Origin: a virus
IMG/VR virus record: IMGVR_UViG_3300028115_000123
Span: 1-23,292 of that record
Direction: 5' to 3' (one strand)
DNA length: 23,292 bases
Under the pieces are notes generated by a model, which saw only the letters and a list, made by a program, of their open reading frames with translations, made no database searches and was not told where the DNA came from. Both the position numbers and the translations under genes were made by a program. Positions 11,111-21,367 of this stretch are shown in pieces (within the stretch, counting starts at the first letter, position 1; every line of letters begins with the position of its first letter).

Positions 11111-11638
11111 ATGGCAATATTAGGCGTAGATGATTTTAAATCGAAACTCAGAGGGGGCGGTGCTCGTCCTAATCTGTTTAAAGCGACCGTCAACTTTCCA
11201 GGCTATGCAGCGGGAGATGTAGAACTTACATCTTTCCTTTGTAAGACTGCTCAGTTGCCAGCGTCCGTAATGAATGTGTTTGAAGTTCCGTTCCGAGGTC
11301 GTCAATTAAAAATGGCAGGCGATAGAACATTTGAACCTTGGACAGTAACCATTATCAATGATACTGACTTCAGCATCCGTAACGCTATGGAACGTTGGAT
11401 GAACGGTATCAATGCCCACCAAGCTAATACTGGTCTGAGTAATCCTATTGATTACCAATCAGACTTGATTATTGAGCAGTTGGATAGAGATGGTGAAACA
11501 CTCAAAACTTATAACTTCCGTGGTTGTTTCCCGACTAATGTCAGTGCAATCGATGTGAGTTATGAGACTGTAGATGCTATCGAAGAGTTTACAGTTGAGT
11601 TCCAAGTTCAATATTGGGAATCTGATACCACTAGTTAA
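11111..11638 (+). CDS. 19: Tail tube protein, T4 gp19-like
   Basis: This 175-residue protein (T4 gp19: 163) has the tube fold signature FLCKTAQLPASVMNVFEVPFRGRQLKMAGDRTFEPWTVTIINDTDFSIRNAMERWM. The C-terminal half includes YNFRGCFPTNVSAIDVSYE and ends in an alternating beta-strand segment. It polymerises on the baseplate into the inner tube through which DNA passes. AAGGAG upstream, overlapping the gp18 stop region, is a strong Shine-Dalgarno. A second protein of the same family is encoded at 20814-21341. Confidence 0.93.
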   Translation: MAILGVDDFKSKLRGGGARPNLFKATVNFPGYAAGDVELTSFLCKTAQLPASVMNVFEVPFRGRQLKMAGDRTFEPWTVTIINDTDFSIRNAMERWMNGINAHQANTGLSNPIDYQSDLIIEQLDRDGETLKTYNFRGCFPTNVSAIDVSYETVDAIEEFTVEFQVQYWESDTTS

Positions 11639-13540: not shown

Positions 13541-13548
13541 TATAAATA
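13541..13548 (+). promoter_or_regulatory. T4-type late promoter for the prohead core-protease-scaffold-capsid genes
   Basis: An exact TATAAATA box lies in the 39-nt gap after gp67. T4 spacing puts the start site at about 13554, which is the A of the next ATG. The box sits inside a short inverted repeat, ATTATT (13533-13538) and AATAAT (13545-13550). It would drive gp68-like, gp21, gp22 and gp23, for which no nearer promoter was found. Confidence 0.7.
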
Positions 13549-13553
13549 ATACT

Positions 13554-13772
13554 ATGAAAACATACAAAGAACTTTTGTCAGAATTAAAAGAACGCAAGCC
13601 AAAAGGTGAAGTGGTCTTAGACAAGAAAGTTAAACGTATCCCTGTTCTTATCACTAAGGAGAAGGGTACTTTACCTTTTGTGGTACATATTGATGGTGAC
13701 CGATTGGACGCTTTCAAATCACTAAAGGATGCAGAGAAGTCTGCGATGAGAGTAATAAAGGAATTAACCTAA
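13554..13772 (+). CDS. Small basic prohead core protein, gp68-like by position
   Basis: This 72-residue protein, KTYKELLSELKERKPKGEVVLDKKV followed by an alpha/beta segment ending KSLKDAEKSAMRVIKELT, is lysine rich. It lies where T4 has gene 68 (141 residues), between gp67 and gp21. The MKTYKELLSEL opening resembles the N-terminus of several marine T4-like head proteins and may be a core-targeting peptide, which is inference. No Shine-Dalgarno precedes the ATG. The predicted late transcript starts at the ATG itself, so translation may be leaderless. The stop codon overlaps the gp21 start (TAATG). The gp68 identity rests on synteny rather than recognisable sequence. Confidence 0.7.
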   Translation: MKTYKELLSELKERKPKGEVVLDKKVKRIPVLITKEKGTLPFVVHIDGDRLDAFKSLKDAEKSAMRVIKELT

Positions 13773-17035: not shown

Positions 17036-17064
17036 ATAGTACCACACTATACAGTTAAAGTCAA
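17036..17064 (-). promoter_or_regulatory. Possible sigma70-type promoter for tRNA-Gly
   Basis: On the - strand TTGACT (17064-17059) is separated by 17 nt from TACTAT (17041-17036), 4 of 6 bases of the -10 consensus. Initiation would fall about 5 nt before the mature tRNA 5' end. The 11-mer CACTATACAGT (17045-17055, + strand) recurs exactly at the main - strand promoter (19280-19290). Cotranscription with the ParB-like gene 36 nt upstream is the alternative. Confidence 0.4.
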
Positions 17065-18035
17065 GCCACTTTTACCAATTCTTTTACATTTTCTGTTTCC
17101 CTATTTTGCGGTAGGAATCCAAGAACACGTAAAGGAAAAACTTTCAGTCCACAATGTTCCAACGCAGCCTTGTGTTGATTCAGTTGTTCTATGAATTTCT
17201 TTCTTTTTAGTTCAAGTGGCAACTTTGCAGTTGGCGCTTTCACATGTCCAATTAAGTCAGTATACTTCCCTGTTTCCATGTAACGTTGAACAGCTTGCAT
17301 GATAACACGATACTGATAACCTTCACCAATACACACACCGTATGTATCACTATCTTCATTATATTCACCACCAACGACATGTTCAGTCGATGCGTGATTT
17401 TCAACCCACTCTTGTACTCTTACGGGTGAGGGAAATAATCTGTAAGGTTGTGGGGTTCCAACTTCTTCCATAACCATATTCAGTACACGACCCTTACATG
17501 ATGCATCACGAGTTCTACCGTAAATACGTGTGAACTCTTTACGAATAGCATCTTCGGTGTTAGGGATACGTCCGTCAGATACCTTACGACTAAGGTGATG
17601 TCGCATATCCACTTCCTTGTTGAGATGTTTGGGATAACCCTCATTCTCTCGTGCTTGTACATCTTCCATCTGTGATGGTGTACCAACAAGTAGTGTGAAT
17701 ATCCAGTCCTTTTGTCCTAAGGCACGGATTGCGTCACTACGTCCATATCCATAGACTAGGACATAACGTTTCGCATGGCCATCACCACGGTCATATACAG
17801 CTGGGGGGAACTCTGCCGTATCAACACCGTTTGCGAATGACAAACGAAGTTGTTCAAGTTCTTGTGCTGTGTGGGTTTCTACTTTTTGGTTATTACCCCC
17901 TTCATCATCGATATGAATATTATCGAAAGATATCTTGAGGTTTTTTACTGAAGTTACACCAAGGTCGGTGTAGTTGGGTAACGCAATTGCGTCAGGGTTT
18001 GATGCAGAATAATCTGCGAGTGCTATAATAGCCAT
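17061..18035 (-). CDS. ParB-like (ParB/sulfiredoxin-fold) protein of unknown role
   Basis: This 324-residue protein has a region at about 53-135 that looks like a ParB N-terminal domain. An EQLRLSFANG helix is followed by PPAVYDRG, the YVLVYGYGRSDAIRALG segment (residues 91-107) in the place of the ParB GxRRxxA box, and a later QARENE segment (128-133) in the place of the ParB E-N motif. ParB-fold proteins are CTPases, nucleases or DNA-binding regulators; which applies here cannot be read from sequence. The remaining about 190 residues have no recognised domain, though RVQEWVENHAS and EYQYRVIMQAVQRYME-like helices are visible. AGGAG (18046-18042) is a good Shine-Dalgarno. It lies downstream of the DruA-like gene on the same strand. 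Alternatives are a phage transcription or genome-segregation factor, or an anti-host nuclease. Confidence 0.6.
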   Translation of the reverse strand: MAIIALADYSASNPDAIALPNYTDLGVTSVKNLKISFDNIHIDDEGGNNQKVETHTAQELEQLRLSFANGVDTAEFPPAVYDRGDGHAKRYVLVYGYGRSDAIRALGQKDWIFTLLVGTPSQMEDVQARENEGYPKHLNKEVDMRHHLSRKVSDGRIPNTEDAIRKEFTRIYGRTRDASCKGRVLNMVMEEVGTPQPYRLFPSPVRVQEWVENHASTEHVVGGEYNEDSDTYGVCIGEGYQYRVIMQAVQRYMETGKYTDLIGHVKAPTAKLPLELKRKKFIEQLNQHKAALEHCGLKVFPLRVLGFLPQNRETENVKELVKVA

Positions 18036-18106
18036 AGTTTTCTCCTATTGGATTAAAGTTAAGTGAAGTAGAATGCCAAAGAGGTTTCCTAAAACACAAT
18101 AATATA

Positions 18107-18126
18107 TATAAGACTTTTATCTTATA
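18107..18126. repeat. Perfect inverted repeat between the two - strand genes
   Basis: TATAAGA (18107-18113), loop CTTTTA, TCTTATA (18120-18126) form a 7-bp AT-rich hairpin overlapping the stop codon of the DruA-like gene. On the - strand it is followed by TATATATT rather than a T-run, so at most it is a weak attenuator or RNA-processing site. The rest of the 81-nt gap holds only the ParB-like gene RBS. Confidence 0.4.
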
Positions 18127-19256
18127 ATATCAATATCGTCTGCGTTTGTATTCCAAGTCTCTATAACAGAACGCAAACGTCCATCTGCTTTTAGAGTTTC
18201 GTATCGATTGGTCGCCTTCTTACGCCACCAATCTGTCACACCCTCAAGACTGAACCTATCAAAGTTATCTGCTTTGACAATGGTATCCGACTCAAGGTTG
18301 AGATACTTCTTCACACTCTCACGGTCAAATCCCATGCAAGAGTAATATGAATTCTTTTGTTGTGTTAGTCCCTTCGCATCAATAAAGGTTTGACAGAACT
18401 TGTCGTATGCATTTACGTCATATTCCTTTAGAGAGTTTTTGATGATAGACACCATCTTCTGTTGTGTCTTCAACTTACGAGATGATGCATCCTTTGGTAC
18501 AAGAGACTCACCGTTGTTACGTTTAATAAACCAGTCACTCAATGTACGATAGTTGTTGTCATTGATAAGTGGTGCAAAATTAGAGTCTGTCTGGCCATTA
18601 CCAATCAATAGTGGTTTCATACCAGAGTACATAGACACACCACCCTTGGCATTACCGTACAGGGACGTGGTCTCGAACATACAGATGTTTGAGTCATACT
18701 TCTTATTGAGTGCGTCACGTACCGTATGAGAGGTACATATAGAGGCGAGTAACTTACCACCAAGGTAGTTGAACCCGAATGGTTGCACAGGTACGATATT
18801 GAATCCCATGATACAGGACTCATTGAATCGTTTCATAACCTCTGCATTCATAGTATCAAGAGGTTTACCCAACCACTCATTACGTGGTCGGCTATTAATA
18901 GTGGGTGACCCGAATCGAATCATACCAATGACCATACCCGTGTTCTTCTCACGTACTACCCAGTTCATCATCTTGCCAGGAATTGACGCTTCTACAGGTG
19001 CGGATGTGGTGATATCCATATAGGACATGAATTGGTCACGTTTCGCCTCTGCGATAGTGAACTCCATATCTTGGGGGTGCATATCGAAGTTGTTGAACAG
19101 GTCTTCCTCTGGGCCCATGCCAGGCAGAGTGAACGGCATAGAGTCCATCCGTTCCAATTTAATCTGTCGCATATAGTCATCGATACGGTCAAAGTTCGCA
19201 AAGAACTCCGTAAAGACGTTTGCAGCATATTCTGCATCTGTTTTCGATAGAATCAT
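18117..19256 (-). CDS. DruA-like (DUF4338-type) protein
   Basis: This 379-residue protein has a central region that matches my recollection of the DUF4338/DruA family block order: VIGMIRFGSPTI (109-120), RNEWLGKP (125-132), IMGFNIVPVQPFGFNYLGGKLLAS (149-172), a VRDALNKKY helix, then MFETTSLYGN (193-202) and KPLLIG (214-219). DruA is the defining protein of Druantia anti-phage systems, and the family also occurs alone in mobile elements; its biochemical activity is not settled. No DruB-E-like helicase accompanies it here. The C-terminal 150 residues are basic and helical with YYSCMGFDRESVKKYLNL and WWRKKATNRYETLK. A strong sigma70-type promoter lies about 25 nt upstream of the ATG, suggesting expression before late genes. 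Function is unknown; DNA binding or processing is inferred. Sequence similarity is judged by eye only. Confidence 0.6.
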   Translation of the reverse strand: MILSKTDAEYAANVFTEFFANFDRIDDYMRQIKLERMDSMPFTLPGMGPEEDLFNNFDMHPQDMEFTIAEAKRDQFMSYMDITTSAPVEASIPGKMMNWVVREKNTGMVIGMIRFGSPTINSRPRNEWLGKPLDTMNAEVMKRFNESCIMGFNIVPVQPFGFNYLGGKLLASICTSHTVRDALNKKYDSNICMFETTSLYGNAKGGVSMYSGMKPLLIGNGQTDSNFAPLINDNNYRTLSDWFIKRNNGESLVPKDASSRKLKTQQKMVSIIKNSLKEYDVNAYDKFCQTFIDAKGLTQQKNSYYSCMGFDRESVKKYLNLESDTIVKADNFDRFSLEGVTDWWRKKATNRYETLKADGRLRSVIETWNTNADDIDIIR

Positions 19257-19684: not shown

Positions 19685-19878
19685 TGGAATATTTACAAGA
19701 GATTACTGATTGGGGAGAACACAATGTCCCCAATCACACATACATTGTGAACCAAGCGGGACAACTTGCTGGTTATATTAAGGTAGGCACTACTGAAGAA
19801 ATCATGTTTAAGAAGCCCATGAAACAGTGGTCAAAGGCACGAAGAAAGTTTAAAAAACTTGTTGCCAAAACTAGTTAA
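19684..19878 (+). CDS. Small basic protein of unknown function (64 aa)
   Basis: I choose ATG 19684, which overlaps the preceding stop (TAATG). A GTG two codons upstream would need a longer overlap. The protein runs EYLQEITDWGEHNVPNHTYIVNQAGQLAGYIKVGTT and then PMKQWSKARRKFKKL, ending in a strongly basic tail that could bind nucleic acid. The pattern of a short beta-hairpin domain plus a KxFSKxxRxF-like tail recurs among small marine T4-like phage proteins of unknown function. The last codons overlap the -35 box of the next promoter. Confidence 0.75.
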   Translation: MEYLQEITDWGEHNVPNHTYIVNQAGQLAGYIKVGTTEEIMFKKPMKQWSKARRKFKKLVAKTS

Positions 19879-19890
19879 ATATAGTATAAT
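19862..19890 (+). promoter_or_regulatory. Sigma70-type promoter for the 172-aa gene operon
   Basis: TTGCCA (19862-19867), 17 nt, then TATAAT (19885-19890). It shares the GTTGCCAAA extended -35 sequence with the promoter at 19335-19363. The start is expected near 19897, with AAAAGGAAA as the Shine-Dalgarno for the ATG at 19924. Confidence 0.85.
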
Positions 19891-19923: not shown

Positions 19924-20442
19924 ATGAAGATTGTAATCCAAACCCAAATCCTTGAAAACTATGCCGCTCATGATGAGAACTATTCTCATGGGGTTGATGA
20001 GGCATACTGGAAGGCCAAAGGTGGTAACACCTACGTGGTCGAGGGTGTATCTATTGAGGACGCACAGTCCGAAGGTTACTACGATACAATCTTCGATTTA
20101 ATCACGGAGAACAACCCGTCATTCCAAGAGTACATCTTGGGTTCCGACCTGATTGATGATGCAGACTTTGTTGAGTCTGACCACAAACAACCGTGGGAAT
20201 CAATCACCTATATCACCCAAGAGGGTGAACAGTTCCGTGCAACCAAGGCCTTGGAGAACGGTGAGTATGGTTACATGAGAAAGGAAATCGCAAAGACCGT
20301 TGAGACCTATATAATGAAAGATAGGGACTTTGATGGTGCGAATTCGTTCTTCGAGAACGGAACATTCCGTAAACAGTTTCATCTTGTTGATGGTACTGTT
20401 TGTCAAAACCAAAGTGAATTTTTAAATGTGATAGGAGCATAA
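19924..20442 (+). CDS. Conserved phage protein of unknown function (172 aa)
   Basis: The N-terminus KIVIQTQILENYAAHDENY and then YWKAKGGNTYVVEGVSIEDA is a pattern I associate with a widespread uncharacterised family in marine T4-like phages. A mid-segment, ESITYITQEGEQFRATKALENGEYGYMRKEIAKTVE, follows. The protein is acidic, soluble and single-domain in appearance, without catalytic motifs I can name. It has its own promoter and is followed one base later by a 66-aa gene. No function is assigned. Confidence 0.85.
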   Translation: MKIVIQTQILENYAAHDENYSHGVDEAYWKAKGGNTYVVEGVSIEDAQSEGYYDTIFDLITENNPSFQEYILGSDLIDDADFVESDHKQPWESITYITQEGEQFRATKALENGEYGYMRKEIAKTVETYIMKDRDFDGANSFFENGTFRKQFHLVDGTVCQNQSEFLNVIGA

Positions 20443-20443
20443 T

Positions 20444-20644
20444 ATGAAAAAGGTATATGAAGTACGATTGGCCAATCAAGGTCGTGAGTGTTTGAAGTGG
20501 TATTCTTTTGATACCGCAAAAGAGGCAGTGAAGTTTGTTTTGAAACAACTGCACGAAGTTGGGTTTACTGTTGATGGTAAAACCTATGAAGAGAAGTTCG
20601 AGGAAATCGAATGGGTAGGAAAGGGGAGAATCGTCAATGTATGA
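20444..20644 (+). CDS. Small protein of unknown function (66 aa)
   Basis: The sequence KKVYEVRLANQGRECLKWYSFDTAKEAVKFVLKQLHEVGFTVDGKTYEEKFEEIEW suggests a compact beta-alpha-beta domain. AGGAG at the end of the 172-aa gene is its Shine-Dalgarno. Its 3' end overlaps a 45-codon gene by 8 nt in another frame. No recognised family. Confidence 0.75.
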   Translation: MKKVYEVRLANQGRECLKWYSFDTAKEAVKFVLKQLHEVGFTVDGKTYEEKFEEIEWVGKGRIVNV

Positions 20645-20774
20645 TTATCATCGATTAATCGCAGCTGCCATGGTTGCACAACAACGTGGCACATCCGATT
20701 GGTGTAAAAAGTACTGGGGTGGTGTTATTGACCAACTCGTAAAAAATATGCATGAATCAGAAACCGTTCATTAA
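20637..20774 (+). CDS. Very small protein of unknown function (45 aa)
   Basis: ATG 20637 to TAA 20772-20774. The product reads MYDYHRLIAAAMVAQQRGT, then SDWCKKYWGGVIDQLVKNMHE, an amphipathic pattern. GGGGAG (20623-20628) lies 8 nt before the ATG, which is a strong Shine-Dalgarno. The 8-nt overlap with the preceding gene and absence of any other frame in this interval support it as real. It ends just before the late promoter inverted repeat. No family recognised. Confidence 0.65.
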   Translation: MYDYHRLIAAAMVAQQRGTSDWCKKYWGGVIDQLVKNMHESETVH

Positions 20775-20775
20775 A

Positions 20776-20807
20776 CTCTTATAAATAGTAGTATAGACTA
20801 TTAAGAG
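20776..20807 (+). promoter_or_regulatory. Inverted repeat joining late promoter and RBS of the gp19-family gene
   Basis: CTCTT (20776-20780), ATA bulge, AATAGT (20784-20789), loop AGTATAG, ACTATT (20797-20802) and AAGAG (20803-20807) form an 11-bp stem. The right arm contains most of the Shine-Dalgarno AAGAGG (20803-20808) for ATG 20814, and the left arm overlaps the TATAAATA box. Upstream read-through RNA would hide the RBS. RNA begun at the late promoter (near 20793) would lack the left arm. This mirrors T4 genes e, soc and 49. Confidence 0.6.
20780..20787 (+). promoter_or_regulatory. T4-type late promoter for the gp19-family gene
   Basis: An exact TATAAATA box. By T4 spacing transcription starts near 20793, giving a leader of about 20 nt with AAGAGG as the Shine-Dalgarno. 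It marks the downstream gene as a late virion gene even though its upstream neighbours have sigma70-type promoters. Confidence 0.8.
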
Positions 20808-20813
20808 GACATT

Positions 20814-21341
20814 ATGGCAGTTAATTCAAAAGTTCAGATTCTAGATGAAGAACTGACAACCAATTTAAACTATCTCCAACCTACGGGGTTTCGTGTTGTT
20901 ATTGACAGAACGAGATACCCGAACTTGGAATATTTTTGTCAATCGGTGTCACATCCTGGCGCACAGTTAACTCCACTAGAATTACCTGTACGTAGGATTA
21001 CTTCCGTACCTTTGGCTGGTGATAAGATGACATTCTCGGAAGTGTCGTTTTCTATCATCCTTGATGAGAACATGACCTCCTATCGTGAGATGTATGACTG
21101 GATGGTTCGTATTACTAATGACGGTCAAGTGTCTGCATCTGAGAGAGATACCAAAGTCCCTACATATGCTGACGTTACATTACATGTGTTGTCTAGTCAC
21201 AATAACACAACACAGAAGATTAAGTATTTTGATTGTGTGCCTACTGGAGTTGGTTCTATTGAATTCAATTCAACGCAAGGTGATACAACCTACGTTACCT
21301 TTGACGCAACATTTAGGTTCTCACAATTTACAATAGTTTGA
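20814..21341 (+). CDS. Second gp19-family tail-tube-fold virion protein
   Basis: This 175-residue protein contains YLQPTGFRVVIDRTRYPNLEYF and then a block that aligns by eye with gp19: FCQSVSHPGAQLTPLELPVRRITSVPLAGDKMTFSEVSFSIILDENMTSYREMYDWM against FLCKTAQLPASVMNVFEVPFRGRQLKMAGDRTFEPWTVTIINDTDFSIRNAMERWM. It is therefore a tube-fold paralogue. Candidate roles are a baseplate tube-initiator component (T4 gp48/gp54 also carry tube-like domains) or a tail terminus component. In related marine phages the slot between gp23 and uvsY is often annotated as tail-completion gp3, so gp3 is an alternative. A late promoter confirms structural timing. The uvsY promoter begins in its stop codon. Confidence 0.8.
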   Translation: MAVNSKVQILDEELTTNLNYLQPTGFRVVIDRTRYPNLEYFCQSVSHPGAQLTPLELPVRRITSVPLAGDKMTFSEVSFSIILDENMTSYREMYDWMVRITNDGQVSASERDTKVPTYADVTLHVLSSHNNTTQKIKYFDCVPTGVGSIEFNSTQGDTTYVTFDATFRFSQFTIV

Positions 21342-21367
21342 CATTAACCCTTTAGTTATGGTATAAT
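21338..21367 (+). promoter_or_regulatory. Sigma70-type promoter for uvsY
   Basis: A perfect TTGACA (21338-21343) overlapping the preceding stop codon, 18 nt, then a perfect TATAAT (21362-21367). Only 5 nt separate the -10 box from the uvsY ATG, so transcription is expected at or within a base or two of the start codon. Confidence 0.8.

Follow-up and report, generated by a model that had tools for sequence, protein, structure and literature searches.

A hairpin enclosing a T4-type late promoter as a probable timing switch for the tail completion gene gp3 of a marine myovirus

Upstream of the tail completion gene gp3 of a T4-like marine myovirus, a hairpin encloses a T4-type late promoter and is predicted to bury the Shine-Dalgarno (SD) sequence of the gene. 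The DNA analysed here, referred to as the window, is a 23,292-bp IMG/VR record. We conclude, with a probability of about 0.78, that the hairpin acts in cis as a timing switch, by which gp3 is silenced on early read-through RNA and released by a late transcription start. A late-promoter/RBS hairpin switch had been proposed in a preliminary description of the sequence, and this reading gained support from RNA folds, from a comparison with T4 gene e, from compensated arms among relatives, and from the loss of the hairpin at loci with a divergent neighbour. The evidence in view consists of sequence elements and predicted structures, of the way in which these are conserved and compensated among relatives, and of a link to gene orientation. 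As judged from its sequence, the locus has every testable feature of the kind of switch represented by T4 e, soc, 49 and I-TevI. What is new is the occurrence of this known T4 switch type at another gene, gp3, and in marine phages.

The window contains portal, sheath, tube, head protease and scaffold genes with T4-type family matches. The gene that follows the hairpin had been described as a gp19-family gene, which holds at the level of the superfamily (tail-tube, phrog_45) but not at the level of the orthologue. By its protein matches, the gene is the gp3 (tail completion) orthologue. Assignment as the gp19 orthologue was rejected because a better phrog_45 match, at 11111-11638, adjoins the sheath gene and is gp19 proper. 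The gene neighbourhood is as follows:

19862-19890, plus strand: putative early sigma70-type promoter of the small-gene cluster, TTGCCA-17-TATAAT (11/12 matches)
19924-20442, plus strand: small-cluster ORF, 172 aa, no family match
20444-20644, plus strand: small-cluster ORF, 66 aa, conserved 5' of gp3 in relatives
20637-20774, plus strand: small-cluster ORF, 45 aa, with a stop codon ending 1 nt 5' of the hairpin
20814-21341, plus strand: gp3-type tail completion protein, 175 aa, phrog_45 tail-tube superfamily, matching proteins annotated as gp3 or tail completion
21338-21367, plus strand: consensus sigma70 promoter TTGACA-18-TATAAT (12/12), position conserved in most hairpin-bearing relatives

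The sigma70 promoter claimed earlier for the small-gene cluster is thus present, and no terminator-like site was found between it and the hairpin at 20776, in agreement with what had been claimed for that interval. The promoter at 21338-21367 appears, from its sequence and position, to restart early transcription into uvsY/uvsW. With early-type promoters at both 19862-19890 and 21338-21367, gp3 is placed as a late gene with an early unit on either side. Minus-strand genes of 324 and 379 aa break up the plus-strand late/early region at 17061-19256 (minus strand); the 379-aa gene matches phrog_19197, of unknown function.

The elements of the hairpin are as follows:

20776-20789, plus strand: left arm, CTCTT (20776-20780), bulge ATA (20781-20783) and AATAGT (20784-20789), expected in read-through RNA only
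20780-20787, plus strand: T4-type late promoter box TATAAATA, -13 to -6, conserved 5' of gp3 in nearly all relatives
20790-20796, plus strand: hairpin loop AGTATAG
20793, plus strand: predicted late transcription start (+1) in the loop, from T4 geometry
20797-20807, plus strand: right arm ACTATTAAGAG (ACTATT 20797-20802, AAGAG 20803-20807), covering most of the SD
20803-20808, plus strand: SD AAGAGG, with the gp3 ATG at 20814

The inverted repeat of 11 bp that had been reported is confirmed as 11 pairs, in which 20776-20780 and 20784-20789 pair with 20797-20807 around a 7-nt loop, together with a 3-nt bulge that had been left unmentioned. The reported overlap of the repeat with the late box and the SD is likewise found, with the box lying inside the repeat and 5 of the 6 SD bases paired in the stem. 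In T4, the late box occupies -13 to -6 (PMC1524935), and this geometry places the predicted +1 at 20793, the same position inside the loop as the start proposed in the preliminary description. The sequence TATAAATA by itself is not rare, occurring 3 times in the window versus 1.39 expected. The gap to the upstream gene is 39 nt here versus 37 nt in T4 gene e.

In the proposed switch, early RNA from about 19890 or further upstream would pass through the small genes into gp3, carrying both arms. The hairpin on this RNA would bury the gp3 SD, and gp3 would be made poorly. After the onset of replication, gp55-directed polymerase would start at 20793; because this start lies inside the loop, the late RNA would lack the left arm and its SD would be free. 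gp3 would then be produced alongside the other tail proteins. The early read-through RNA, the late start and the differing translation are parts of the switch whose existence we infer. gp55 was found in relatives, including a 149-kb genome (G001) with an identical gp3 hairpin, and not within the window.

Taken in isolation, the fold is ordinary, at -7.4 kcal/mol (z -0.78, with 44/200 shuffles equally good), and the stability of the isolated stem was dropped as evidence. At 20 C, the stem reaches -11.2 kcal/mol. Folding of the long and late transcripts, a check named beforehand, gave a predicted mean unpaired probability of the SD of 0.17 in the long RNA (buried) and 0.66 in the late RNA (free). 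In a null model where the late box and SD were held fixed and the remaining letters were shuffled, the mean unpaired probability was 0.56, versus the 0.17 observed (p 0.017 and 0.033 in two runs). The unusual property in these folding models is SD burial, not stem stability. The same test applied to T4 gene e gave SD unpaired probabilities of 0.00 in the long and 0.65 in the late RNA (p 0.010).

Searching phage records with the DNA of the locus yielded weak matches only, and IMG/VR relatives were therefore used instead. Searching with the gp3 protein yielded 80 IMG/VR loci, nearly all of which conserve the late box. SD unpaired probability was 0.17 or lower in 13 of the 18 distinct codirectional SD-led gp3 leaders of this protein-search set. 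Adding leaders found via the hairpin pattern itself, which form a biased set, brought the count of buried leaders to 25 of 30 (22/30 at p<0.05). Two leaders, L143 and L126, were not significant against the null preserving the box and SD.

The bulge measures 0, 3 or 4 nt among relatives, so that an alignment with one fixed pairing scheme could not be used for covariation, and the arms were compared by register. Upper-arm pairs are rebuilt on both sides, as AATAGT/ACTATT in the window, ATAGAA/TTCTAT in L014, ATAGAGG/CTTCTAT in L015 and ATAGTAT/ATACTAT in L143, while the lower stem varies solely to G-U pairs (GAGAGG in L012, AAGGGG in L023). Arms varying without compensation among relatives had been named beforehand as a refutation; most lineages pass this test, and L038-L041 fail it. 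These four related leaders have an open SD (0.68-0.71) and no hairpin, although their small genes are codirectional and a sense promoter with 11/12 matches lies near -700. They are a real exception. The SD of L022 is likewise open (0.43). In L006 and L023, the hairpin is present and no strong sense promoter lies within 1.6 kb. The CTCT 5' of the box is kept in every near-clade codirectional gp3 leader but L038-L041, and is missing in the divergent ones. A distant gp3 clade (26-28% identity; L096, L106) has the stem CCTCTTATAAA/TTTATAAGAGG, which is complementary through the whole SD (p 0.003 for L096). L298, a cousin of that clade, has a box-enclosing stem of unrelated sequence, with the SD partly buried (0.28, p 0.14).

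At gp3 loci with a divergent neighbour, a minus-strand promoter with 11-12/12 matches lies 54-89 nt upstream and the hairpin is absent. The SD is open at the divergent loci L033 and L036 (0.78-0.83), its burial at L072 is no greater than in the null, and most divergent loci are without any SD-length leader. Loci that follow gp23 (L075-L081) have a terminator immediately upstream, and the apparent partial SD burial in L075-L079 is not beyond the null. On the gp3 tree, where L038-L041 are nested next to hairpin carriers and support for the deep branches is weak, there are 4 changes of the hairpin label and 3 of the divergent label; the association between orientation and hairpin thus rests on few independent events. 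The statement that the hairpin occurs solely where read-through occurs was rejected as too strong, L152 and L094 being divergent yet with a hairpin and L038-L041 the opposite. In L152 and L094, a 12-bp perfect palindrome between divergent genes, 5' of a 251-aa tail-tube-family gene, carries TATAAATA on both strands and an SD on each side. This palindrome probably serves as a late promoter in both directions.

Scanning for CTCT-TATAAATA..AAGAGG..ATG gave 90 stretches, most of them gp3, whereas two permuted left arms gave 5 and 13. An unconstrained scan for TATAAATA..AAGAGG..ATG revealed no general CTCT preference among the 80 matches listed. The box/SD hairpin layout was also found at other places where early genes give way to late ones, namely after uvsX-helicase genes (L098, L122, L142) and after an RNR-like gene (L123). 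In L097 and L118, the late box lies in an SD-burying hairpin before a GIY-YIG nuclease gene and after a recombination-nuclease-like gene. These neighbours were named uvsX, helicase, recombination nuclease and RNR from a reading of their translations. Most other SD-led late genes of G001 are as open in the long RNA as in the late RNA. In L349, a piece of the genome of Methylophilales phage Melnitz, a cultured relative, a 10-bp stem AATCCCTTG/CAAGGGATT 5' of a 346-aa gp5-like gene encloses a late box and SD, with T6 downstream and a tRNA-like end just upstream. From this arrangement, the stem could be a terminator and a late-promoter switch at once.

Translational coupling is the main rival to the silencing switch: with the upstream stop codon directly next to the left arm, terminating ribosomes could open the hairpin. 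Ribosomes finishing the 45-aa ORF would sit on the left arm and leave the SD accessible, and gp3 would be made early with the small genes. At nearly all hairpin loci, the upstream stop codon indeed ends 0-12 nt ahead of the left arm; in L014-L021 it lies inside the late box, so that ribosomes on the upstream ORF would translate through the left arm. However, T4 nudE/e are spaced alike, and long e transcripts are nevertheless silenced about 100-fold (PMC3014915). Coupling also leaves the position of the late box inside the hairpin unexplained, and the gp3 protein is structural and required late. We consider coupling unlikely. Chance pairing of an AT-rich promoter with a purine-rich SD, which would make the palindrome a by-product with no regulatory role, accords with the ordinary stability of the isolated stem (z -0.78, 44/200 shuffles equal) and with the non-significant leaders L143 and L126. 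It is nonetheless quite improbable, as CTCT is kept in the codirectional near-clade gp3 leaders (L038-L041 apart) but not in the divergent ones, the arms are compensated, the same form recurs in the distant clade, and permuted left arms are 7-18 times rarer.

The inverted repeat might instead act at the DNA level, as a repressor operator at the late promoter or as an aid to gp55 recognition. The repeat overlaps the box, and T4 I-TevI represses its own late promoter via an overlapping operator (PMC2988022). Such a role is very improbable here, since other late promoters of the same phages are without the repeat (G001) and the symmetry of the repeat tracks the SD; the asymmetric bulges of 0, 3 or 4 nt among relatives fit RNA better than a dimer operator. 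Structured leaders often serve mRNA protection or processing, and the hairpin could chiefly be an RNase target or 5' stabiliser. We regard this as the least probable of the alternatives, because the productive late RNA would be without the hairpin and the pairing always involves the SD. The operator, RNA stability and by-product readings all fit less well than the silencing switch.

A second arrangement of the late box was observed, in which it lies exactly 5 nt before the ATG. This spacing occurs in 18 of 46 distinct sites, with none at 4, 6 or 7 nt, and the late mRNA from such sites is predicted to start at the AUG and hence be leaderless. The sites include 13541-13554 in the window, those 5' of gp3 in L031 and L042-L071, and others in the G001, G002 and Melnitz genomes. 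Among TATAAATA sites, a spacing of 5 was found for 6 in G001, 4 in G002, 2 in Melnitz and 0/23 in T4, and several orthologues common to G001 and G002 carry it. Leaderless late starts, if real, would be a different translation-initiation mode for several structural genes.

A broader reading, offered tentatively, is that late genes of marine T4-like phages are silenced on early RNA by interchangeable late-promoter devices, and that gp3 swaps its device as its neighbours change. The devices would be an SD hairpin around the box, a leaderless start, a terminator just upstream, and divergent transcription. The leaderless device is without an SD, so translation would occur only from RNA starting at the AUG. 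For pelagimyophages, a published attempt at late-promoter prediction did not succeed (PMC7029224). At the present locus, a clear late box is found at a structural gene, and the presence of the hairpin follows orientation across uncultivated ocean phages. The hairpin and box together provide a sequence-only signature for locating early/late boundaries, and the orientation-dependent presence provides a natural experiment on hairpin retention.

Early/late switches of this type were elucidated in T4 and closely related phages. T4 gene e resembles the locus studied here in having the late box within a hairpin and the SD buried only in upstream-initiated RNA (PMC3014915), in its similar spacing from the upstream stop codon (about 37-39 nt), and in the outcome of the folding test. 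It differs in having two late boxes and encoding a lysis enzyme (lysozyme), whereas here there is one box and a tail completion protein, and the arms are unrelated in sequence. T4 soc and 49 have been grouped with e and I-TevI among genes whose initiation regions carry an inhibitory structure (PMC3014915), and the preliminary description had cited e, soc and 49 as examples of the same logic. Of the two T4 genes folded, e reproduces the pattern, but soc has its AUG paired rather than its SD. I-TevI, I-TevII, I-TevIII, segB and Aeh1 mobE have a nested late promoter and an RBS buried on early/middle transcripts (PMC2988022), as proposed here. These five are homing endonucleases inside early genes, whereas gp3 is a core virion gene; the GIY-YIG gene of L097 and L118 is a closer parallel to them than gp3.
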